Of a stretch of 37,669 bases of DNA, positions 113 to 10,578 are shown piece after piece. Made by a program: the position numbers and the translations under genes. This DNA comes from Anaeroplasma bactoclasticum (GTDB lineage Bacteria > Bacillota_I > Bacilli_A > Acholeplasmatales > Anaeroplasmataceae), in contig JAMPGQ010000014.1 in the NCBI GenBank assembly GCA_023663825.1, positions 1 through 37,669 of the forward strand, read 5' to 3'. The notes under the pieces were generated by a model that was not told the origin of the DNA, did no database searches, and saw nothing but the letters and a program-made list of their open reading frames with translations. How positions within the stretch are numbered: the stretch's first letter is position 1; each line of letters begins with the position of its first letter.

Positions 113-988
113 ATGAAGTTAACATTGAGGTTATGGCTTGTAACATTGGGTATTATTTTAGTGTGGCTTTATTTTTTGTTTATTTCACCTAAAATATTTA
201 ATAATCACATTGTGACTATACCAGATGTAGTCAATCTAAGTGAAGACGAAGCTATCGAGGAATTAAACAAGAAAAAAATAAAATATCAAATTACTTATCT
301 TGAAAGTCAAGAAGAGGTTGTCTTAAAAACTATACCTTATGCAGGAACAAGCATTAAGGCGGATTATGTAGTTTCCTTATATATAGGTAAGATTATGCCA
401 GCAGCCTATAAAAGCTATTTAGGTAGAGTGTATGAGGATCTAGCTTTTGAAATAGAGCTTATGTGCAATAATCATGGCTTGAAGTTAAAAATAGAATATG
501 AAGAAACAGATAGTACGATTAGTGGAGTTATTATTAAAGAGTCGCTTGTAGATGGATCGGTATTAAATCAAGGAGATGAGCTTTGTTTAACTTTATCTAC
601 AAATCATTCTACCTATATGCTACCAAACTTTGTAGGGCTCTCTATTGATGAGGCATTAGAGCTTATTGAAGAATATAATATTAAAGTCAATTTAACCTAT
701 ATGCCTACACCTATTGATGAGGATATTATTATCTTTCAATCTACGCCTGCAAATACGCTAATACAAAAGAATAATCCTTATGCTTTGGACTTATATATTT
801 CTAAAGGAGTTAAGCCAACAACTGTCGTTGATGTGGATTTTTTTATAGAGGTAATCCAAAATTTAGGTTATGAAATAAAGATAAATTATGTAAATTCTAA
901 TGATTTAAAAAATAAATTAGTTGCGTTTGAGGTTCAAAAGTTATATGATAGTAATGTAGTAAAATATATCCTTTGGATTACAAAATAG
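113..988 (+). CDS. membrane-anchored PASTA-repeat protein without kinase domain
   Basis: This 291-residue protein has a very short cytoplasmic N-terminus, one membrane segment (about residues 7-25) and an extracellular part built of PASTA-like repeats. Repeat 1 covers about 33-93 (starting TIPDVVNLSEDEA) and repeat 3 about 168-236 (starting LPNFVGLSIDEAL). The stretches between and after them look like degenerate repeats. PASTA domains bind peptidoglycan or muropeptides, and in PrkC/Stk1 kinases they follow a cytoplasmic kinase domain. Here no kinase precedes the membrane segment, although the neighbours rsgA and rpe are those of prkC. ATG 113 is chosen because GGTGAT (104-109) lies just upstream. 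The longer frame from TTG 86 would break the signal-anchor start. It may partner a kinase encoded upstream. Confidence 0.8.
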   Translation: MKLTLRLWLVTLGIILVWLYFLFISPKIFNNHIVTIPDVVNLSEDEAIEELNKKKIKYQITYLESQEEVVLKTIPYAGTSIKADYVVSLYIGKIMPAAYKSYLGRVYEDLAFEIELMCNNHGLKLKIEYEETDSTISGVIIKESLVDGSVLNQGDELCLTLSTNHSTYMLPNFVGLSIDEALELIEEYNIKVNLTYMPTPIDEDIIIFQSTPANTLIQKNNPYALDLYISKGVKPTTVVDVDFFIEVIQNLGYEIKINYVNSNDLKNKLVAFEVQKLYDSNVVKYILWITK

Positions 989-997
989 GAGAACTGG

Positions 998-1915
998 ATG
1001 CAAGGAAGAATCATTAATTTAAATGGCGGAAAATATCAGGTTGTATTAGAAAATCATACACTTGTTACGATACCAGCTAGAGGGAAATTTAGAAGTATAA
1101 AAACAGTTCAAGCAAACCCCAATAGCTTAAGCAAAAAAGAAATAGTAATGACTGTTAAAAATTCTCCTAAGGTTGGAGATTTAGTTACCGTATTAAATGA
1201 TCGTATTGATTCTATTTTAGAACGTAAAAATGAACTCATTCGACCTGATATTGCTAATGTAGATCAAATTCTCTTAGTATTTGCTGCCAAGGAACCAGAT
1301 TTTTCTTCCTATTTATTAGATCTGTTTATTGTAAATATTACAAAGAAGGATATTCATCCTATTATTGTTATTACAAAAATAGACAAACTTAAAGAAGAAG
1401 AGCTTTCCTTATTAAAGCATCAATTATCTTACTACGAAAGATTAGGATATGATGTTTTTTATGTTAATAGTAAAAGTGGTGAAGGAGTTGTAGAGGTTGC
1501 TAAGCATCTAGAGGGTAAGGTAACAGTTTTATCTGGTCAGACTGGTGCTGGAAAATCCACCCTCATTAACGCAATATTTCCGGATTTTGAACTTAAGACT
1601 CAAGAGATTAGTCAAGCTTTAGGTAGAGGAAAGCATACGACTAGAGAAACTACATTATATGCTTATAAAGATGGCTTTATTGGAGATACACCAGGTTTTT
1701 CTAAGCTAGATGTTTTAGGAATAAAAAAGAAGGAACTTTCTAATTTGTTTGTTGAATTTGGAGAGGAAACTTGCAGATTTAAAGATTGTTTACATCAAAA
1801 AAATGCTAAAAATTGTGGGGTTCACAAAGGTGTTCTAGAAGGAAGAATTTTGACTTCAAGACATGAGAATTATTTAAAAATGCTTATGCAAATTGAAAGG
1901 GAGGAAAGAAGATAA
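998..1915 (+). CDS. rsgA: ribosome small-subunit-dependent GTPase RsgA
   Basis: RsgA (YloQ/CpgA/YjeQ) is a GTPase that acts in late maturation of the 30S subunit. The 305-residue protein shows the circularly permuted motif order typical of the family: an N-terminal OB-fold region, then ITKIDK (G4), then the P-loop GQTGAGKS at 180-187, then GDTPGF (G3). A C-terminal zinc site follows, with Cys, Cys, His and Cys in CRFKDCLH and the nearby NCGVH. GGAGAA precedes ATG 998 by 7 bases. The gene is 9 bases after the PASTA gene, and its stop shares one base with the rpe start (TAATG), so translational coupling in one operon is likely. This is the same order as in B. subtilis. Confidence 0.97.
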   Translation: MQGRIINLNGGKYQVVLENHTLVTIPARGKFRSIKTVQANPNSLSKKEIVMTVKNSPKVGDLVTVLNDRIDSILERKNELIRPDIANVDQILLVFAAKEPDFSSYLLDLFIVNITKKDIHPIIVITKIDKLKEEELSLLKHQLSYYERLGYDVFYVNSKSGEGVVEVAKHLEGKVTVLSGQTGAGKSTLINAIFPDFELKTQEISQALGRGKHTTRETTLYAYKDGFIGDTPGFSKLDVLGIKKKELSNLFVEFGEETCRFKDCLHQKNAKNCGVHKGVLEGRILTSRHENYLKMLMQIEREERR

Positions 1916-2556
1916 TGGAGATCTCTTTATCTATTTTAAACATAAATTATAACCGTATTGAAGATGAATTAAAAAAATATAAAAATGAAATAAAAATTCT
2001 TCACCTAGATATAATGGATGGACACTTTGTTCCAAACATTAGCTTTGGATCTGCTGTAGTAAAATCCATTCATAAGGAAAACAATTTTATTTATGATACA
2101 CATTTGATGATTTCTGACCCTATGAAATATATAAAAGATTTTGTAGATGCTGGAAGTGATTATATCACTTTTCACTTAGAAGCAGTAAGTAATGTTAATG
2201 AAGTAATAGATTATATTCATGACTTCGGTGTAAAGGCAGGACTAGCTATTAAGCCAAATACAAAGGTAGAAGAGGTACTTCCTTATTTATCTAAATTAGA
2301 TTTAGTTTTAATTATGTCCGTTGAACCAGGCTTTGGTGGACAGAAGTTTATGGAAAGTTCTATAGAAAAGGCAATTAAACTAAAACAACAGAAAGAAGAA
2401 AATAAGTATTCTTACCTAATCAGCATAGATGGTGGAATTAATAATGAAACCATTCAAAGAGTGGAACCTTATCTTGATTTGGCTGTAGTAGGTTCCTATA
2501 TAACGGCTTCTAAAAATCCATTAGAAAATATTAAACTTCTTAAGCATAATTTATAA
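1915..2556 (+). CDS. rpe: ribulose-phosphate 3-epimerase
   Basis: Rpe interconverts D-ribulose 5-phosphate and D-xylulose 5-phosphate in the cytosolic pentose phosphate pathway. At 213 residues it has the family's usual length. Recognisable blocks are SLSIL near the N-terminus, HLDIMDGHFVPNISFG (about residues 32-47, with metal and catalytic residues), THLMI, the VEPGFGGQKF loop and the phosphate-binding SIDGGIN near 171. The start is fixed by a GGGAGG Shine-Dalgarno and the one-base overlap with rsgA. It is the last housekeeping gene before spoVM and the terminator at 2676. Confidence 0.97.
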   Translation: MEISLSILNINYNRIEDELKKYKNEIKILHLDIMDGHFVPNISFGSAVVKSIHKENNFIYDTHLMISDPMKYIKDFVDAGSDYITFHLEAVSNVNEVIDYIHDFGVKAGLAIKPNTKVEEVLPYLSKLDLVLIMSVEPGFGGQKFMESSIEKAIKLKQQKEENKYSYLISIDGGINNETIQRVEPYLDLAVVGSYITASKNPLENIKLLKHNL

Positions 2557-2573
2557 GCAATTGACATAAGGTA
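2544..2573 (+). promoter_or_regulatory. possible SigE/SigK-type promoter for spoVM
   Basis: CATAAGGTA at 2565-2573 fits the sporulation sigma E/K -10 pattern CATANNNTA. GCATAAT at 2544-2550 lies 14 bases upstream, compatible with a sigma E -35. B. subtilis spoVM is transcribed by sigma E. TATACT at 2572-2577 could also serve a vegetative promoter. The match is by eye, and the motif is short in AT-rich DNA. Confidence 0.35.
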
Positions 2574-2590
2574 TACTAAAGGTGATACCC

Positions 2591-2662
2591 ATTAGAATCA
2601 TTATTATTAAACTCCCTAATTTCTTAGTGAAATTCTTGAGCTTATTTTCAAGAAAAAAATAA
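2591..2662 (+). CDS. spoVM: SpoVM-like spore coat anchoring peptide (apparent ATT start)
   Basis: This is a 23-codon ORF with one amphipathic helix, reading (M)RIIIIKLPNFLVKFLSLF then SRKK. SpoVM of B. subtilis is 26 residues (beginning MKFYTIKLPKFL) and marks the curved forespore membrane for coat assembly. Here K7-L8-P9 and F11-L12 fall at the same positions when ATT 2591 is taken as the start. GGTGAT (2581-2586) sits 4 bases before that ATT, the same spacing as in front of other starts in this window. The only other in-frame candidate is GTG 2582, which would add three residues and have a poor Shine-Dalgarno. The location directly after rpe and before rpmB is that of B. subtilis spoVM. Family identity is inferred from pattern and synteny. 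Confidence 0.78.
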   Translation: MRIIIIKLPNFLVKFLSLFSRKK

Positions 2663-2675
2663 ATAATTGTAAAAA

Positions 2676-2710
2676 AAATAGAAATCACTAAAAAGATTTC
2701 TATTTTTTTT
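2676..2710 (+). terminator. intrinsic terminator after spoVM
   Basis: An 11-bp perfect stem (2676-2686 with 2695-2705), an 8-base loop and a T tract to 2710. It closes the rsgA-rpe-spoVM unit before the metal-resistance promoter. Confidence 0.85.
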
Positions 2711-2729
2711 AGTTTTTTTGAAAAAACAC

Positions 2730-2787
2730 TTGACAGTTGAGCGGTCACTCAACTATAATATAGATAGTTGAACAATCATTCAACTAT
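2730..2787 (+). promoter_or_regulatory. metal-regulated promoter with two ArsR-type operators
   Basis: TTGACA (2730-2735) and TATAAT (2754-2759) are separated by 18 bases. The spacer is itself an inverted repeat (2736-2753: GTTGAG, 6 bases, CTCAAC). A second palindrome follows at 2764-2787 (ATAGTTGAA, 6 bases, TTCAACTAT). Both resemble the TGAA-N6-TTCA type operators of SmtB/CzrA/CadC. Bound repressor would cover the spacer and the transcription start, so metal-free repression of the whole arsR-HMA-ATPase unit is expected. Confidence 0.85.
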
Positions 2788-2803
2788 TAAAGAGGTGAAG
2801 AAA

Positions 2804-3178
2804 ATGAAAGATTTTATAGATTGTGAAATTGACCATCCACATAATGAACTGATTCAAGAGGTTAAATCCTTAATGCCGAAAGAAGAACATCTATATGATG
2901 TTGCAGAACTTTTCAAAGTGTTTGGTGATTCTACAAGAACAAGAATTCTTGCTGCGCTATTTAATCATGAACTTTGCGTGTGTGATATTTGTAAAGTTGT
3001 AGAAATGACAAAATCTGCAGTTTCTCATCAATTAAAGGTTTTAAGAGACTTTAATTTGGTAAAATATCGTAAGCAAGGCAAGGAAGTATTTTATTCCTTG
3101 GCTGATGAGCATGTATTTTTGATTTATGAAAAGGCTCTTGAGCATATATTAGAAAAAAAGGAAGGTATGGAAGAATGA
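2804..3178 (+). CDS. ArsR/SmtB-family metal-sensing repressor (CadC/CzrA type)
   Basis: A 124-residue winged-helix repressor that should leave DNA on binding Zn, Cd or a related ion. Two metal sites can be traced. The ELCVCDIC segment in the recognition region resembles the alpha3 Cys pair of CadC. Near the C-terminus, D-x-H, ten residues, H-x2-E (in ADEHVFL ... EHILE) matches the alpha5 Zn site of CadC. The N-terminal arm has Cys7 but His11 where CadC has a second Cys. ATG 2804 is chosen over the upstream in-frame ATG 2768 because AGAGGTG (2791-2797) precedes it and the upstream codons lie inside the operator. It overlaps the next gene by 4 bases. The inducing metal is not known. Confidence 0.9.
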   Translation: MKDFIDCEIDHPHNELIQEVKSLMPKEEHLYDVAELFKVFGDSTRTRILAALFNHELCVCDICKVVEMTKSAVSHQLKVLRDFNLVKYRKQGKEVFYSLADEHVFLIYEKALEHILEKKEGMEE

Positions 3179-3393
3179 AAAAAGTATTTAAGTTAGTAGA
3201 TTTAGATTGCGCTAATTGTGCAGCTAAAATGGAAAGAAGTATTTTAAAGATTAAAGGCGTACAATCTGCAAATGTTAGTTTCATGGCACAAAAACTAACA
3301 ATAGAAGCACCAGATGATGAATTTGAAACCATCATGGATGAAGTTGTCCGTGTGTGCAAAAAGGTTGAACCTGATTGCATTATAAAAAGATAA
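3175..3393 (+). CDS. free-standing heavy-metal-associated (HMA) domain protein
   Basis: This 72-residue single-domain protein has the HMA/CopZ fold pattern. Metal-binding Cys12 and Cys15 lie in LDCANCAAKME, and a KGVQSANVSF beta-strand region follows. Such domains bind Cu(I), Zn(II) or Cd(II) and pass them to P-type ATPases. In most ZntA/CadA pumps one or more copies are fused to the ATPase N-terminus. Here the downstream ATPase lacks it and this gene supplies it separately. ATG 3175 overlaps the repressor stop (ATGA). A CCTGATTGC cysteine near the C-terminus could add a ligand. The role as chaperone for the adjacent pump is inferred. Confidence 0.9.
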   Translation: MKKVFKLVDLDCANCAAKMERSILKIKGVQSANVSFMAQKLTIEAPDDEFETIMDEVVRVCKKVEPDCIIKR

Positions 3394-3417
3394 TGTGTGA
3401 ATAAAGAATACCTACTG

Positions 3418-3453
3418 AAAGCATGTTAATAGAAATATTATGTGCAATGCTTT
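3418..3453 (+). other. weak hairpin between HMA gene and ATPase gene
   Basis: AAAGCAT (3418-3424) can pair with ATGCTTT (3447-3453) across a 22-base loop, with a short T run after it. It lies in the 94-base gap before the ATPase and could attenuate readthrough or tune stoichiometry. The long loop makes it a weak prediction. Confidence 0.3.
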
Positions 3454-3487
3454 TTGTTTATTTATTTTAAAGATTGGAAGGGATAAT

Positions 3488-5392
3488 ATGACTAGAAGAC
3501 AAAAACGAAATCTAATTAGAATTTGTATTACTATAGTTTTATTTATCATCTTATTTACAGTAGATCATATCATTCACTTAGATACTGTTATACCAAATGA
3601 GAGACTAGGATGGATATTTCCAGCATGTCTTTATCTTGTATTATATTTGGTTATTGCCTATGATGTTTTATGGAAGGCAATTAGAAATATATGTCATGGA
3701 CAGGTATTTGACGAAAATTTTTTGATGTGTGTTGCAAGCATTGGAGCCTTTTGTCTTGGTATAGTTAGGGGAGTAACTAGACAGAAAATAGAAGGTTTTG
3801 ATGAGGCAGTGGCGGTAATTTTATTTTATCAGGTGGGAGAATTTTTCCAAGGCTATGCTGTTGGTAAATCTCGAAAATCTATTTCTAGTTTAATGGATAT
3901 ACGTCCTGATTTTGCGAATGTATTAAGAGATGGAAAAATTGAAACTGTTGAACCAGATGAGGTAGAACTAGAAGAAATTATTGTTGTTAAGCCTGGAGAA
4001 AGAGTTCCGTTAGATGGAATTATCCTAAATGGTTCATCTACACTTGATACAAAAGCCTTAACTGGAGAATCATTGCCAAGAGAGGTTCAAAAGGGTGATG
4101 AAATTATAAGTGGTTGTGTAAATCTCACTCAAACGCTTCAAATACAAGTCAAAAAGGCATTTTATGATTCAACCGTATCCAAAATATTAGATTTAGTAGA
4201 AAACGCCTCTAGCCAAAAATCTAAAGCCGAAAACTTTATAACAAAATTTGCAAAGTATTATACACCAATAGTTGTTATTCTTGCAGTGCTTTTAGCATTG
4301 ATTCCAGGTTTGATTACAAAAGAATATACAGAGTGGATTTATAGAGCGTTAAACTTCTTAGTTGTTTCTTGCCCTTGTGCATTGGTGATTTCCATTCCTC
4401 TTTCCTTCTTCGCAGGAATTGGGGTAGCCTCTAAACTAGGTATTTTAATTAAAGGGTCTAACTATTTAGAAAAATTCAATAAGGTAAATACTTTTGTTTT
4501 TGATAAAACAGGAACCTTAACCAAAGGAAACTTTGCAGTTACTTTAGTTTTGCCTGAGAATAAAAGAGAAGAAATATTAGAACTTGCTGCAATTGCTGAA
4601 GGTTCTTCAAACCATCCAATTGCTAAAAGTATTTTAGATATTGTTGGGAAAGTACCAGAAACAGGATATACATTAACAGATGTAGCAGGTCATGGAATTA
4701 TAGCAGTAAAAGAGGACATAAGCATTTACTGTGGCAATGAAAAATTGATGGAATCTAGTGGCATAGAGTATCAAAAGGTAGAACATATAGGAACAGTTGT
4801 TTATATAGCAAAGAATAAAGAATTTATTGGTTCCATTTTAATTAGTGATGAAATTAAGGAAGAAGCTCCTAAAGTGATAAAATCCTTAAATGATATGGGA
4901 AATGAAACTATTATGCTTACTGGCGATAACGAAGCTATCGCTAAAGAGGTAGCTTCTAAATTAGGTGTCACCTCCTATAAGGCATCCTTACTCCCTCAAA
5001 ACAAGGTAGAAGAGGTTGAAAATCTATTATCGAAGAAAAAGGATAAGGAGTATTTATCCTTTGTTGGAGATGGAATCAATGACGCCCCAGTATTGATGCG
5101 TTCTGATATTGGTATATCTATGGGTGGAGTTGGATCTGATGCAGCTATAGAGGCATCTGACATTGTTTTAATGAAGGATGATTTAAAGGGAATAGGGTTG
5201 GCTAAGAAAATAGCTAAAAAGACGATGCGTATTGTATTTGAAAATATTATTTTTGCGTTAGGTATTAAAATTCTTGTTTTAATCCTTTCAGCCCTCGGTT
5301 ATAGTAATATGTGGCTTGGTGTGTTTGCAGATGTAGGTGTTGCAATATTAGCCATCTTAAACGCAATGCGTTGTTCTAGCATAAAAGAATAG
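3488..5392 (+). CDS. heavy-metal translocating P-type ATPase (Zn/Cd/Pb type)
   Basis: A P1B-type efflux pump of 634 residues in the cytoplasmic membrane. The actuator motif LTGES, the ion-binding CPC at 295-297 (VVSCPCALV), phosphorylated Asp339 in FDKTGTLTKG, the HP-locus SSNHPIAKS and the hinge VGDGINDAP are all present. The last membrane helix has the Asp of FADVGVA that is typical of ZntA/CadA rather than copper pumps. No N-terminal HMA domain is present, only a basic stretch before the first helix. ATG 3488 is preferred over an upstream in-frame ATG (3440) because GGAAGGG (3476-3482) lies 5 bases before it. With the repressor and HMA gene it forms a metal-resistance operon. The substrate is inferred. 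Confidence 0.95.
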   Translation: MTRRQKRNLIRICITIVLFIILFTVDHIIHLDTVIPNERLGWIFPACLYLVLYLVIAYDVLWKAIRNICHGQVFDENFLMCVASIGAFCLGIVRGVTRQKIEGFDEAVAVILFYQVGEFFQGYAVGKSRKSISSLMDIRPDFANVLRDGKIETVEPDEVELEEIIVVKPGERVPLDGIILNGSSTLDTKALTGESLPREVQKGDEIISGCVNLTQTLQIQVKKAFYDSTVSKILDLVENASSQKSKAENFITKFAKYYTPIVVILAVLLALIPGLITKEYTEWIYRALNFLVVSCPCALVISIPLSFFAGIGVASKLGILIKGSNYLEKFNKVNTFVFDKTGTLTKGNFAVTLVLPENKREEILELAAIAEGSSNHPIAKSILDIVGKVPETGYTLTDVAGHGIIAVKEDISIYCGNEKLMESSGIEYQKVEHIGTVVYIAKNKEFIGSILISDEIKEEAPKVIKSLNDMGNETIMLTGDNEAIAKEVASKLGVTSYKASLLPQNKVEEVENLLSKKKDKEYLSFVGDGINDAPVLMRSDIGISMGGVGSDAAIEASDIVLMKDDLKGIGLAKKIAKKTMRIVFENIIFALGIKILVLILSALGYSNMWLGVFADVGVAILAILNAMRCSSIKE

Positions 5393-5426
5393 AATCTAAA
5401 AGGCTTATATAAAGCCGTATTCTTTT
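5383..5426 (+). terminator. terminator after the P-type ATPase
   Basis: The outer stem AAAAGAATA (5383-5391) pairs with TATTCTTTT (5418-5426), with an inner GGCTT/AAGCC helix (5402-5416) and a short T-rich tail. It begins inside the last codons of the ATPase. Confidence 0.6.
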
Positions 5427-5490
5427 ATTTATACTAAAAAAATTTAAAAAATTCTTTTGATATTCGTTATATTAAGTGAGGTGGGGAAAA

Positions 5491-5988
5491 GTGGACTTAG
5501 AAAAAGAAGTAGAAAAATATAAACAAGGGAATCAACAATCCTTTGAAAAAATCTATAATGAAACAAAAGCGTTAGTTCGATTTGCAATCTATTCAAAAAT
5601 TCCAAATCGTTTTATCGTTGAAGATTTAATTCAAGATACCTATGTTAAAGTCAATCAAATGATTTCTAATTATCAAGCAAAAAACTTTCGTTCTTGGATT
5701 TATATAATAGCTAAGAATACAGCGCTAGATTATTTAAAAAAGAAAAAAGAATCTAGTATGGATGACTTAGATGTTTTACCTGATATGAAAAGTACACATC
5801 CCTATTTGTATTACGCAATTCGCCACCTTGAAGAAATAGAACGTGAGGTTTTCTTGATGAAGGTTTTGTGTGGCCACACAACGAAAAAAATTTCTGAAAT
5901 TTTAAATCTTAAACCTTCTAAAGTTAACGAGCACTACTATTTAGCTAAACAAAAATTAAGAAAATGTCTAGAGGATGAAGAACTATGA
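5491..5988 (+). CDS. ECF-type RNA polymerase sigma factor
   Basis: This 165-residue sigma-70 family protein has only regions 2 and 4. Region 2 includes VEDLIQDTYVKV and RSWIYIIAKNTALDYL (about residues 46-93). Region 4 is REVFLMKVLCGHTTKKISEI followed by a recognition helix near KPSKVNEHYYLAKQKL. GTG 5491 is chosen because GAGGTGGGG (5479-5487) is just upstream; GTG 5476 would place the Shine-Dalgarno inside the gene. It overlaps the following membrane beta-propeller gene by 4 bases, the usual arrangement for a sigma factor and its anti-sigma factor. The upstream gap (5427-5478) shows no clear ECF-type -35, so autoregulation is only a guess. Confidence 0.92.
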   Translation: MDLEKEVEKYKQGNQQSFEKIYNETKALVRFAIYSKIPNRFIVEDLIQDTYVKVNQMISNYQAKNFRSWIYIIAKNTALDYLKKKKESSMDDLDVLPDMKSTHPYLYYAIRHLEEIEREVFLMKVLCGHTTKKISEILNLKPSKVNEHYYLAKQKLRKCLEDEEL

Positions 5989-7733
5989 AATTAAGAGATT
6001 ATAAAAAGAATTTAAAAAATGAATATCAAAATACTTTTAAGGAAAAAAAACTTAAGCATGAGTTTCATTTTAAATTACGCTATGCCTTTTTAACTGCTTT
6101 TGGAGTTTTATTTGTTGCACTATTGATTGAGCATATTTGGGTGTTTAACTATAATAAAGGAGTAGAAAAGCATAATCAAGCTATTTCAAATCGGGTAGAG
6201 CTAGCGAATTCTTCCGAGCTTTACACAATTGATAATCCAAAAGAGTATAATCAAGTTGTATCTACCTACAAAAATAAATATGTTTATCAAAGAGAAAAAA
6301 CCTCTATTTTGACTAACTTATTTACCTTTCAGTTTATAGGATGTTCATCATCTAATGATAAGAATGCAGCGTCTGATGTATTTGGACCTACTATAAATGA
6401 AACGGGAAATTCTAGTAACAATTCATATCAAACTAACATTCAAGTAAATGGTATAGATGAAGCTGATGTTGCTAAATGTGATGGGAAATACATTTATTAT
6501 ATTTATTCTTATTATCTCTACATTTATGAGATCAAGAATGAAACAATCATAACAAATGTTTCTGATGAGGGCTTTGAACTATATATTTATGATAATCAAA
6601 TCATTTCTGTTGGCAATAAAAAAACAACGCTTTATGAATTGAATCAGAATATATTAGAAGTAAAAGAACAAATTACATATGAAAGATATTTAACTTCAAG
6701 ACTGATTGAAAATAAACTATATTTAGCATATGCAAATTATGCGAATGAAAAGAATATTTCCTATGAGAAATGCTATTATGATACCTGCAGTAATCCCTCT
6801 TATTTATATTGTCTTTCATGTATTGATTTAGATAAAAAAGATCATAAAGAAACACAATTGCTCTCCTCTTATGAAACAATACTTTATGCTTCTAATAAAT
6901 CCTTTTATTTCGCATCAAATAATTCTACCTTTACTTCTATTTCTATATTCAATTATGATTTAGAACCAGTAGGGGTTGCTTGTGTAAATGGGGTAGTGTT
7001 GAATCAATTTTCTATGGATGAATATGATGGAAACTTTAGGGTAGTATCTACAGATACGACTAAAAATGCAGAAGAATTAAATGCAATTACAATCTTTAGA
7101 CAATCTGATTTGGAAAAGATAGGCTACTTAAACCAAGGCATTGGTAAAGAAAGACAGACTGTGAAATCTGTTCGATTTGATGGAGACACATGCTATGTTG
7201 TAACCTATGAAAATACAGATCCTCTTTATGAGATAGATTGCTCAAACCCGGAAAATCCAGTGATTGTTTCTGCATATGAAGCACCAGGCTATTCTAATTA
7301 TCTACATACTTTTAAAATAAAAGATAAAGAATATGTAGTGGGATTAGGTTTCACTGATTCTAGAGTAAGTACTAAAATATCTGTCTATGAAAAAACAGAA
7401 GGAACGAGCCAAATTGGTAAAGATTTCATTTTAGCTTATAGTGAGTTTTATAGTAAAGCAGATTATTATAATAGTTTAATAGATTTAGGAATGTTTTCTA
7501 ATCATAAGGCATTATTTATCTATAATGATGAATCATTCTTATATCTAGGTGCCATGGTTGCTTATGATGCTTATTTGATATTTAAAATTGATGTTGAATC
7601 AGAAAATGTAGTTACAATTTATAAGGAATTCAAGCTTCAGGCAGAAAAATTTAATTTTTCTAGAGTATTCTTGGTTGATAACAAAATTTATCTTACGGAA
7701 TGTGATAAAGTTATAGTAGATAACTTTTCATAA
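5985..7733 (+). CDS. membrane-anchored beta-propeller protein, putative anti-sigma factor/sensor
   Basis: A 582-residue protein with a basic cytoplasmic N-terminus (1-30), one membrane helix (about 32-53) and a large extracytoplasmic domain. The QVNGIDEADVAKCDGKYIYY region (from about residue 153) is the signature of the secreted beta-propeller family Pfam PF09826. Repeated blade-like strands run to the C-terminus (for example TCYVVTYENTDPLYEIDCS). The gene overlaps the ECF sigma gene by 4 bases and shares its operon with a lipoprotein. The short N-terminal tail has no recognisable zinc anti-sigma motif (HxxxCxxC). It is therefore proposed as a sigma-binding anchor by position only, with the propeller as ligand sensor. 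Confidence 0.75.
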   Translation: MKLRDYKKNLKNEYQNTFKEKKLKHEFHFKLRYAFLTAFGVLFVALLIEHIWVFNYNKGVEKHNQAISNRVELANSSELYTIDNPKEYNQVVSTYKNKYVYQREKTSILTNLFTFQFIGCSSSNDKNAASDVFGPTINETGNSSNNSYQTNIQVNGIDEADVAKCDGKYIYYIYSYYLYIYEIKNETIITNVSDEGFELYIYDNQIISVGNKKTTLYELNQNILEVKEQITYERYLTSRLIENKLYLAYANYANEKNISYEKCYYDTCSNPSYLYCLSCIDLDKKDHKETQLLSSYETILYASNKSFYFASNNSTFTSISIFNYDLEPVGVACVNGVVLNQFSMDEYDGNFRVVSTDTTKNAEELNAITIFRQSDLEKIGYLNQGIGKERQTVKSVRFDGDTCYVVTYENTDPLYEIDCSNPENPVIVSAYEAPGYSNYLHTFKIKDKEYVVGLGFTDSRVSTKISVYEKTEGTSQIGKDFILAYSEFYSKADYYNSLIDLGMFSNHKALFIYNDESFLYLGAMVAYDAYLIFKIDVESENVVTIYKEFKLQAEKFNFSRVFLVDNKIYLTECDKVIVDNFS

Positions 7734-7753
7734 AAGAAAGGTAGGGAAAGGCT

Positions 7754-8326
7754 ATGAAAAAAGTATTAAGCGTAATTTTATGCCTATGTTTCTTATGCTT
7801 TATGTCTTCTTGTACTAAAAAAACAGAATATGATGATAAGACAATTGCCAAAATAGAAACTGAGTGTATTGAAGGTATGGGATTCGGTTTTGTTTACAAG
7901 CGAATCTTTGATTTTGCAGATGGTAAAGTATATGACATTACACTTGCTGATGAAACTATAATTAATCTTTTAAAAGGACAATATGTGGCTGACTCAGACT
8001 ATTATAAGGAGTATGCTTCATTAGAAGAATATGAGTCTTATATTAATTCTTGCTATAATACTTTAATAGAAATTGCCACATTCCCAGAAGAAGAGGGCAA
8101 AGTCTTTTTAAAGAAAATTATTTCTTTAGGAATTTATACATGGAAGGAAAGCTATACGACCGATGAAATCATATTTGATGGAGGGAGTGAAAATATTAAA
8201 ATTTTCTTCACTGATGGAACTGAAAAAAGAACACATATTTATTTTAAGTACCCTAAGAATTATGAACGTATACTTGAAACTTTTAAAAAGCACTTTAATG
8301 TTGGTTGTTGGAATGGTACAAACTAA
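7754..8326 (+). CDS. predicted lipoprotein of unknown function
   Basis: This 190-residue protein has a lipoprotein signal peptide: two basic residues, a hydrophobic core, then lipobox FMSSC with the modified Cys near residue 20. The mature part is acidic with many aromatic residues and matches no family I recognise. It lies 20 bases after the beta-propeller gene with no terminator between and has a GAAAGG-type Shine-Dalgarno. It should be co-transcribed with the ECF pair and may be an envelope target or accessory sensor of that system. A strong terminator follows directly. Confidence 0.75.
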   Translation: MKKVLSVILCLCFLCFMSSCTKKTEYDDKTIAKIETECIEGMGFGFVYKRIFDFADGKVYDITLADETIINLLKGQYVADSDYYKEYASLEEYESYINSCYNTLIEIATFPEEEGKVFLKKIISLGIYTWKESYTTDEIIFDGGSENIKIFFTDGTEKRTHIYFKYPKNYERILETFKKHFNVGCWNGTN

Positions 8327-8411: not shown

Positions 8412-8600
8412 TTAAGCTCTTTCAAGATTACACTTCTTTAAAGCTCTAGCAGAAATTTTTACTTTCTTAACGTTACCGTTCTCATCTTTGATATGAACAG
8501 TTTGAAGATTAGCCTTCCATGTACGGCGAGTAGCATTTAAAGCATGAGATCTTTTGTTTCCTGTTACAGTACCCTTTCCAGTGATATAACATTTAGCCAT
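8412..8600 (-). CDS. rpmB: 50S ribosomal protein L28
   Basis: This 62-residue protein begins [20 protein letters not shown] and contains [11 protein letters not shown] and [10 protein letters not shown], the L28 pattern, at the family's normal length. AAGGAGG precedes the ATG. It is encoded against its neighbours, exactly as rpmB is between spoVM and yloU/yloV in B. subtilis, and stands alone with its own promoter and terminator. Cys4 and Cys57 are isolated and do not form the four-Cys zinc set of C+ L28 variants. Confidence 0.97.
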
Positions 8601-8740: not shown

Positions 8741-8922
8741 CACTGCCCTTAAATGAAAATTTTTACTTTACTTTTAAGGGCTTTAGTGTTAAAATGTTAA
8801 ATGAATTAAACATTTTCAAGTGTAAGAGGTGATTTTTTAAGAGTCGAATTATGTCTTTTTGGGAGTATATTTGGAAGAGTTGTATTGTTGATTTGATTAT
8901 CCTATAGCTATTGAAAGCTATA
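8741..8922 (+). other. structured 5' leader of fakA
   Basis: The leader holds three hairpins. The first pairs 8741-8753 with 8773-8788 (CACT and GCCCTTAAA with TTTAAGGGC and AGTG, the two helices separated by a three-base bulge). The second is AAAATGTT (8791-8798) with AACATTTT (8809-8816). The third is TATAGCT (8903-8909) with AGCTATA (8916-8922). None is followed by a T tract, so they are not simple terminators. No T-box or riboswitch class that I know is evident. The gene yloU, which precedes yloV in B. subtilis, is missing here. Confidence 0.45.
8851..8907 (+). CDS. possible 18-residue leader peptide in the fakA leader
   Basis: ATG 8851 opens an 18-codon frame (MSFWEYIWKSCIVDLIIL) ending in TAG just inside the third leader hairpin. 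The peptide is hydrophobic with two Trp. The nearest Shine-Dalgarno (AAGAGGTGAT, 8824-8833) is 17 bases away, which is too far for efficient initiation. A translated leader peptide or a chance frame are both possible. Confidence 0.2.
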   Translation: MSFWEYIWKSCIVDLIIL

Positions 8923-8958
8923 ACATATATACTTAATTTGATATTTAGGAGGATTACC

Positions 8959-10578
8959 ATGCCGGTAAGCAACATAAGTGCGTCCTTATTTAAAAAAATG
9001 GTAATGAATGGCGCTATTAATTTAAAGAATAACCACAAAAAAGTGGATGAGTTGAATGTTTTCCCTGTTCCAGATGGAGATACAGGTACCAATATGTCTA
9101 TGACAGTTATGTCAGGAGTTCGTGAGATGGATTCTTGTGAGTCCTCTTCAATTATAGATATAGCTAAAGTTTTATCACGTGGTGCATTGATGGGTGCACG
9201 TGGAAATTCAGGAGTTATTTTATCTCAGTTTTTCAGAGGTCTTTATGTAGGTATGAAGGAGTTAGACCACAACTACTTATCCATAGAAGACTTAATGGGC
9301 TGTTTTGAATCAGGCTGCCGTGTAGCCTATAAAGCTGTAATGGAACCCGTTGAAGGAACAATTTTAACTGTTGTTCGCGAAGCTGCTGAACATACAAGAT
9401 CACATATAAATGATTTTAATACAATTGATGATTTGCTAGAATGCTATCATAAAGAGGCTGAAAAATCTTTGGAGAATACTCCAAATCTTTTACCAGTTCT
9501 AAAAGAATCTGGTGTAGTTGATAGTGGTGGAGCAGGCTTTTTAGAAATTGTTAAGGGAATGATTATGGCCTTAAATGGAAAAATGCTTGAGGCAAATGAG
9601 GGTACACAAGCCGCAGCGCATGAAGAAAAACAAGTTGAGATGAAAAATATTTATTGTACAGAATTCTTTATCAATCTAAAAGAACCGAAGAGCTTTGATG
9701 AGGGTGCATCTAAATCTTCCTTTTCTTGCTTAGGAGATTCTTTATGTATGGTTATGGAAAACACAACTTGTAAAGTACATCTGCACACAGACCATCCTGG
9801 AAGAGTATTAGAACAAGCGTTAAAATATGGTGAGCTTACCGACATTAAAATAGAAAATCAAAAAATTCAGCATACTCATTTAAAAACAGGGGCTAAGGAG
9901 CTTGGAAATGGTCCTAAAAAGTCATTTGCTTTGGTAGCTGTATGTTTTGGTGAGGGTATTTCTCAAACCTTTAGAGATTTAGGTGTGGATTATATTATTG
10001 AAGGTGGTCAAACCATGAATCCATCTACAGAAGCATTTGTTGAAGCATGTAGTTTGGTTAATGCTGAAAACATTATTATCATTCCGAACAATGGAAATGT
10101 TGTAATGGCCGCAAGTCAAGCTGCCGATTTAGTAAAAGACTCTAAAGTAGAGGTGCTAAAGGCAAAAACCATAGCTCAAGGGTATGCTTCTTTGATGGTG
10201 TTTGATCCTGAAGTAGATATGGAAACAAATTTAGAGGCAATGATGGAAGCAGTTGAGCATGTAAAAACAGGCGAAATCACATATTCTGTTAGAGATACAG
10301 AAATTGGCGGTGTTAAAATTGTCGAAGGTGATTTCATGGGTATTGCCAATGGAGAAATTGTTGTATCTACAAAGAAACAAAAGGATGCTCTTGTTCAGTT
10401 ATTAAATAAGCTAATTGATGAAGAAAGTCAGATTGTTACATTCTTCTGTGGTAAAGACGTTAAGGATGAGGAAAAACAAGATTTAGAAGAGCTTTGTCAA
10501 AAGGTAAATAGAAACGTAGAAGTTGAAATTATTGATGGTGAACAAGAAATTTATTCTTATATTCTTGCAGTAGAATAG
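8959..10578 (+). CDS. fakA: fatty acid kinase FakA (YloV, DAK phosphatase-type)
   Basis: FakA phosphorylates exogenous fatty acids held by a FakB (DegV-type) carrier, giving acyl-phosphate that PlsX can convert to acyl-ACP. The 539-residue protein has the N-terminal Dak-type ATP-binding domain with NVFPVPDGDTGTNMSMT (about residues 33-49). RGALMGARGNSGVILSQFF and SGVVDSGGAGFLEIVKG follow. The C-terminal half is the YloV-type domain, with the NNGNVVMAA block. ATG 8959 is fixed by AGGAGG (8947-8952). The upstream in-frame ATG 8911 lies in leader hairpin sequence. A terminator separates it from recG, but plsX lies in the same cluster, which fits a shared role in phospholipid precursor supply. 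Confidence 0.93.
   Translation: MPVSNISASLFKKMVMNGAINLKNNHKKVDELNVFPVPDGDTGTNMSMTVMSGVREMDSCESSSIIDIAKVLSRGALMGARGNSGVILSQFFRGLYVGMKELDHNYLSIEDLMGCFESGCRVAYKAVMEPVEGTILTVVREAAEHTRSHINDFNTIDDLLECYHKEAEKSLENTPNLLPVLKESGVVDSGGAGFLEIVKGMIMALNGKMLEANEGTQAAAHEEKQVEMKNIYCTEFFINLKEPKSFDEGASKSSFSCLGDSLCMVMENTTCKVHLHTDHPGRVLEQALKYGELTDIKIENQKIQHTHLKTGAKELGNGPKKSFALVAVCFGEGISQTFRDLGVDYIIEGGQTMNPSTEAFVEACSLVNAENIIIIPNNGNVVMAASQAADLVKDSKVEVLKAKTIAQGYASLMVFDPEVDMETNLEAMMEAVEHVKTGEITYSVRDTEIGGVKIVEGDFMGIANGEIVVSTKKQKDALVQLLNKLIDEESQIVTFFCGKDVKDEEKQDLEELCQKVNRNVEVEIIDGEQEIYSYILAVE

Follow-up and report, generated by a model that had tools for sequence, protein, structure and literature searches.

A frame of 23 codons directly downstream of the gene for ribulose-phosphate 3-epimerase (rpe) in Anaeroplasma bactoclasticum resembles the sporulation gene spoVM, provided that it is read from an ATT codon. 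This raises the question of whether a spore-coat gene is initiated at AUU and, if so, what such a start might serve. The window, i.e. the whole stretch of DNA that was analysed, comprises 37,669 nucleotides and is contig 5 of an assembly of 2.06 Mb in 98 contigs (genome G000 in our numbering). It was compared with a genus set of 11 Anaeroplasmataceae-type genomes (MAGs), G000 included. On the evidence below, we regard it as quite probable that spoVM is translated from AUU by the ordinary initiator tRNA, and that a sigma-E promoter, a long Shine-Dalgarno (SD) helix and gating by initiation factor IF3 hold its synthesis at a low set rate.

The original prediction had placed the 23-codon frame at positions 2591-2662, directly after rpe, with GGTGAT four bases before the ATT. 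The frame was found at these coordinates, with 34 bases between the rpe stop and codon 1, and its TAA stop codon occupies 2660-2662 (Table 1). Positions 2581-2596 read GGTGAT-ACCC-ATT-AGA, in which GGTGAT lies at 2581-2586, the four intervening bases ACCC at 2587-2590 and ATT at 2591-2593. Upstream of rpe, the window carries rsgA and a gene for a PASTA protein; positions 2804-8326, between spoVM and rpmB, hold arsR, genes for an HMA protein and a P-type ATPase, and other genes. Thus, the neighbours rpe, rpmB (on the minus strand) and fakA are all present. The hairpin downstream of the frame has a predicted stability of -16.1 kcal/mol (z -4.46), which was equalled in none of 200 shuffles; a G+C-based terminator scan did not list it. 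The mRNA structure across the spoVM start showed nothing unusual (z -0.67 and 0.58).

Table 1 Features of the putative spoVM locus and its flanking markers in the window.
Feature	Position	Strand	Basis or remark
rpe, ribulose-phosphate 3-epimerase	1915..2556	+	PF00834, 203.8 bits; stop 2554-2556; directly 5' of spoVM
Sigma-E-like -35 element GCATAAT	2544..2550	+	overlaps the 3' end of rpe
Sigma-E-like -10 element CATAAGGT	2565..2572	+	same place in 10/10 genus members
Extended SD AGGTGAT	2580..2586	+	aligned spacing of 8 to ATT
Proposed AUU initiation codon	2591..2593	+	ATT in 9, ATC in 1 of 10 genus members
Putative spoVM, 23 codons + stop, peptide (M)RIIIIKLPNFLVKFLSLFSRKK	2591..2662	+	model score, synteny, third-position variability
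A/T-rich hairpin followed by T run, probable transcription terminator after spoVM	2670..2711	+	folding
rpmB (L28), flanking marker	8412..8600	-	PF00830, 68.8 bits
fakA/DAK2-type gene, flanking marker	8911..10578	+	PF13684, 259.9 bits; PF02734, 135.9 bits

The frame is present in 10 of the 11 genus genomes, and no match was found in G002, which is 72% complete. At the aligned N-terminus, codon 1 is ATT in nine of the ten genomes holding the frame, ATC in one (G004) and ATG in none. The original prediction had allowed for a sequencing error, to be recognised by an ATG in relatives; with ATT or ATC in ten assemblies, such an error is ruled out. At the nine other loci, Rpe is only 48-85% identical to that of the window, so that the AUH codon has been kept across a long divergence, albeit in genomes of shared ancestry; the recurrence of frame, SD and ATT/ATC codon in 10 of 11 genomes shows that the frame is not due to chance. 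In the six species that share the peptide start and can be compared without gaps, 15 of the 21 codons 3-23 vary at the third position, three at the first and two at the second, which indicates selection at the protein level.

Weak starts as a general trait of spoVM in Bacilli were considered and found to be unsupported. Of 31 Bacilli loci given for tabulation, L095 and L100 were dropped because they did not fit the pattern; the remaining 29 rows, two of which come from the family of the window, have 23 ATG, 5 TTG and 1 GTG starts. Among nine genomes of the family outside the genus, we found 3 ATG, 5 TTG (G033 being uncertain) and 1 GTG. Five of 24 matching genomes, with matches at E values of only 0.01-0.05, had been left out. 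In G033, a species of the related genus g6 (locus L124), the SpoVM N-terminus, TTG AGA AGC CAT TTT..., seems to be two residues longer, and Lys is missing at position 7.

An extended SD at proper spacing accompanies the AUH codon in all ten genus members: the exact match spans 7-8 nt (AGGTGAT, or AGGTGATC in G008) at an aligned spacing of 8, or 7 in G001, and the SD-to-start distance is 4 nt in the window and 3 nt in G001. AAGGTGAT also stands 3-6 bases before a GTG (G021), a TTG (G027) or an ATG (G147, G138) in genus g6, which belongs to the same family, and it therefore acts as an SD in that genus.

Upstream of ATT 2591, the in-frame codons are TAA GGT ATA CTA AAG GTG ATA CCC, among which GTG 2582-2584 is the sole ATG, GTG or TTG. 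Translation from this codon would yield 26 residues, three of them extra at the N-terminus (MIP-IRIIII...), and thus a peptide as long as Bacillus SpoVM. The GTG is in frame in nine of the ten genomes, overlapping the SD in each, a 4-nt SD (AAGG) precedes it in four, and GTG is the commoner start codon, accounting for 19 of 251 SD-supported picks in our sample; the apparent extension in G033 further suggests that additional N-terminal residues may be tolerated. We nevertheless consider a GTG start distinctly improbable. In G001, the SD-to-ATT spacer is one base shorter and the GTG is thereby out of frame; the frame there reads TAG GAG TTC ATA CCT TTT ACT AAA GGT GAT ATT, then ATT AAA ATT, without any ATG, GTG, TTG or CTG from the ATT back to the TAG, although this evidence comes from a single MAG whose assembly gave no SpoIVA match. 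An SD of at least 4 nt is absent before the GTG in six of the ten genomes, and the GTG overlaps AAGGTGAT, which serves other, out-of-frame starts in g6 (G021, G147). Moreover, GTG ATA CCC shows no synonymous change in the six species, in which the whole stretch GTG ATA CCC ATT AGA is invariant. The chance of finding none of four third positions variable is 0.007 (simple binomial) or 0.017 (pooled), with kinship ignored, and CCC makes up 4.8% of the Pro codons in the sampled long ORFs. Finally, the SpoVM model NF033436, which gives the 23-residue form 16.3 bits, failed to match the one of 26 residues. The claim that the peptide aligns with SpoVM only if ATT 2591 is codon 1 was thus borne out, and ATT is supported over GTG 2582 as the initiator.

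The position of the putative promoter also bears on the choice of the start codon. The sigma-E-like -35/-10 pair, with a spacer of 14 nt, occupies the same place in all ten genus members, with the -10 element ending 17-18 nt before codon 1, and the spacers have diverged. We scored the pair against KMATATT and CATACAnT, which we take to be the sigma-E consensus, using 500 shuffles per locus. Strong matches were obtained in G006, G010, G005, G001 and G008, where 0-7 shuffles did as well, and a moderate one in G004 (17 shuffles); for the window and for three close relatives the match is weak, with 54-75 shuffles reaching it and 75 of 500 doing so for the window alone. In the family outside the genus, the pair is strong in G016, G021, G147, G138 and G033 (0-6 of 500) and weak in G012, G022 and G018 (31-54); in G027 (274) no pair was detected at this position. 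Judged by the usual distance from a -10 element, transcription would start near 2578-2581, at the SD itself, leaving no room for an SD before GTG 2582; the GTG would be only a few bases away from the 5' end of the predicted transcript. The promoter motif suggests that spoVM may depend on sigma-E in these bacteria, as it does in B. subtilis, where sigma-E turns the gene on (PMC517825).

The similarity of the peptide to known SpoVM proteins is limited. With M typed at position 1, the window peptide scored 16.3 bits (E 0.0072) against NCBIfam NF033436 (SpoVM_broad), below the cut-off of 31 bits; residues 1-16 aligned with profile positions 1-16, placing a Pro at residue 9. When genomes were searched with the same model, the matches listed lay at other places, never at one of the ten genus loci; three of six genus peptides went unmatched even after M had been entered as the first residue. 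A PDB sequence search with SpoVM and a search of Pfam returned no match either. The named records with a related peptide comprise four Anaeroplasmataceae and two 'uncultured Mollicutes' MAGs. G021, of the same family, has rpe, rpmB and fakA on either side of a peptide that clears the SpoVM cut-off with 32.1 bits. All six rows of our alignment A1 share I6, L8, P9 and F11, and P9 is invariant in alignment A2 as well. The hydrophobic moment of the genus peptides (0.28-0.53), taken as a gauge of an amphipathic helix after P9, was not above that of shuffles in any of six cases (833-3346 of 5000 as high); it was above shuffles in the controls G228 (0/5000) and B. subtilis SpoVM in its assumed sequence (143/5000). 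The helix region and tail of the window peptide are shorter than in Bacillus SpoVM.

The original prediction presupposed a genome with sporulation genes, and both Spo0A and SpoIVA were found. SpoIVA, the partner of SpoVM, is encoded in G000 (PF09547, 281.5 bits) and in 8 of the 11 genus genomes altogether, with no match in G001, G002 and G007, and Spo0A (Spo0A_C) was detected in 10 of 11, including G000 but not G010. According to a survey, sporulation genes, spo0A among them, occur in a majority of the genomes of this family, which is supposed not to form spores, so that some members may do so after all (PMC10868615). Taken together, synteny, the residue motif, the promoter motif and the partner genes support the assignment of the peptide as a putative SpoVM.

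Two other readings of the peptide have to be weighed against this assignment. A conserved small peptide might occupy the place of spoVM without being SpoVM any more, such as a membrane peptide of another kind; the score below the NF033436 cut-off, the short tail and the lack of clear amphipathicity could point that way. We give this very little weight, because the four invariant residues include P9, whose replacement by Ala abolishes localisation of SpoVM in B. subtilis (PMC12004969), the neighbours are those of the peptide in G021 that exceeds the cut-off, and both the sigma-E-like motif and SpoIVA are present. Equally slim is the chance that spoVM is decaying, its start codon already gone, while the lineage gives up sporulation. 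Repeated losses of sporulation have been inferred in this and related orders (PMC10868615), and three of the 11 assemblies are without a SpoIVA match; a decaying gene, however, would not be expected to change mostly at third positions, or to keep promoter motif, SD and frame in ten genomes, most of which also encode Spo0A and SpoIVA.

The AUU start of the putative spoVM has one counterpart in our sample of the genome. A census of AUH starts covered 432 kb, i.e. the window and 20 further stretches (394.7 kb), or about one fifth of the genome; it comprised 336 stop-to-stop ORFs of at least 90 codons, of which the rows listed with AUH and an SD of at least 6 were judged by eye. The only AUU start kept was that of infC, most other rows lying inside genes or beside an ordinary start. 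The filter is blind to short genes and can mislead: a LysR-like gene in L145 was rejected as an AUU start, as an ATG stands just before the ATT at a spacing shorter than the filter allowed. In L149 (1780-2220, minus strand), we noticed an ORF of 147 codons for a P-loop protein, with the SD AAAGGAG and no ATG, GTG or TTG 5' of its ATT, which looks like a gene fragment. The infC gene, located at L143 1510-2103 (minus strand) in the genome of the window, reads ATT-AAY-AAR at its apparent start in all ten genomes with an IF3 match (L063-L072), preceded by GGAGGTG in eight and GGGGGTG in two. As at spoVM, the SD is overlapped by an in-frame GTG in two of these (L069, L070), and some conventional codon is in frame there or further upstream in 8 of 10.

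A changed initiation machinery was rejected as the cause of the AUU start, since neither the initiator tRNA nor IF3 appears out of the ordinary. In a pattern search, a single GGGCTCATAACCC initiator stem turned up in the genome, and ARAGORN, which was run on three loci, calls CAT tRNAs in that locus. IF3 is present and its RFKGR stretch is identical to that of PDB chain 5me0_Y, with RFFGR instead in G001, G008 and G004. The methyltransferase RsmH (PF01795) was matched in 10 of 11 genus genomes and not in G000, probably owing to an assembly gap; E. coli without MraW (RsmH) or RsmI shows raised initiation at AUU, as cited in PMC13317604.

In the mechanism that we propose, a sigma-E-type promoter overlapping the end of rpe would give rise to a short mother-cell transcript that starts approximately at the SD. 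The long helix between AGGUGAU and the anti-SD would keep AUU in the P site, presumably with formyl-Met as the first residue, and IF3 would let pass only a fraction of the 30S complexes, so that SpoVM would be made at a low, set rate. Read-through from rsgA-rpe during growth would be damped likewise. Both the low output and the reason for it are proposed by analogy with other systems; the retention of AUU or AUC in ten related gut bacteria suggests that SpoVM may be made slowly on purpose. The idea in the original prediction that translation of spoVM is throttled for regulation, or needs special conditions in the mother cell, is plausible in view of measured precedents elsewhere. A 2026 preprint dealing with CmpA, a checkpoint protein of coat assembly in B. 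subtilis, contends that transcripts of products needed in limiting amounts carry translation-limiting structures (PMC13317604). A bolder version, which we hold to be rather unlikely, has translation of spoVM open once the mother cell contains less IF3 in proportion to 30S subunits: as spoVM and infC share AUU and a strong SD, the start of coat assembly would be tied to the IF3-to-ribosome ratio, amounting to an initiation-factor checkpoint on spore morphogenesis.

Conserved AUU and AUA starts with an extended SD are already known in Staphylococcus aureus, where cvfC1 starts with AUU and ccpN, infC and citZ with AUA (PMC13009471), and spoVM would add a case. In reporters, cvfC1, ccpN and citZ reached about 10% of the AUG level in poor medium, and ccpN up to 30% in rich medium (PMC13009471). 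These starts resemble that of spoVM in their codons, in the extended start-proximal SD and, for cvfC1 and ccpN, in their conservation across species; in contrast, they were demonstrated by Ribo-Ret and reporters, whereas the AUU of spoVM is deduced by comparison, and the four genes named in the text of that report do not include one for sporulation (PMC13009471). A further precedent is sigR of Streptomyces, in which a GTC start is under repression by IF3 and a canonical codon leads to overproduction of SigR (PMC5472188). Here too, an unusual start codon holds a regulatory protein low with IF3 as the gate (PMC5472188), as proposed for spoVM, but the codon is GTC, the product is a transcription factor and the phylum is different. 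Closer to hand, infC appears to combine AUU with a strong SD in the genus of the window itself. Its expression is presumably controlled by its own product, IF3, whereas SpoVM is not a translation factor. SpoVM of B. subtilis and other Bacilli shares with the window the neighbours rpe and rpmB/fakA (as in G021) and the motif I6-x-L8-P9-x-F11; it has 26 residues in B. subtilis, and the tabulated relatives have ordinary starts, compared to AUU and 23 residues in the window.

Among the matches listed for spoVM with start codon or translation initiation, no title or abstract opening mentions a non-AUG start of spoVM, and a search for spoVM combined with non-AUG found none. With an AUU start of spoVM, the few bacterial genes in which AUU is a conserved initiator would come to include one for development. 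Should SpoVM translation indeed be restrained deliberately, the level of this curvature sensor would be a tuned variable of spore assembly. A gene that is very short, scores below the cut-off and has a non-standard start could be overlooked in candidate spore formers among the relatives of Mollicutes, and ordinary gene finding would miss the tiny spore-coat gene described here.

Two minor observations concern the region between spoVM and rpmB. At positions 2730-2759, 5' of arsR and the genes for the HMA protein and the P-type ATPase, an imperfect inverted repeat (GTTGAGCGGTCACTCAAC) coincides in part with a perfect TTGACA-18-TATAAT promoter and is likely to be the operator of a metal-sensing ArsR. 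In four relatives (L004, L006, L009 and L010, from G007, G003, G010 and G005, respectively), the stretch 3' of arsR where other relatives have the P-type ATPase is occupied by another membrane protein, which starts with MNTLILVLSLIAG or MNVLILVLSLIAG and which we take to be ZIP-like.
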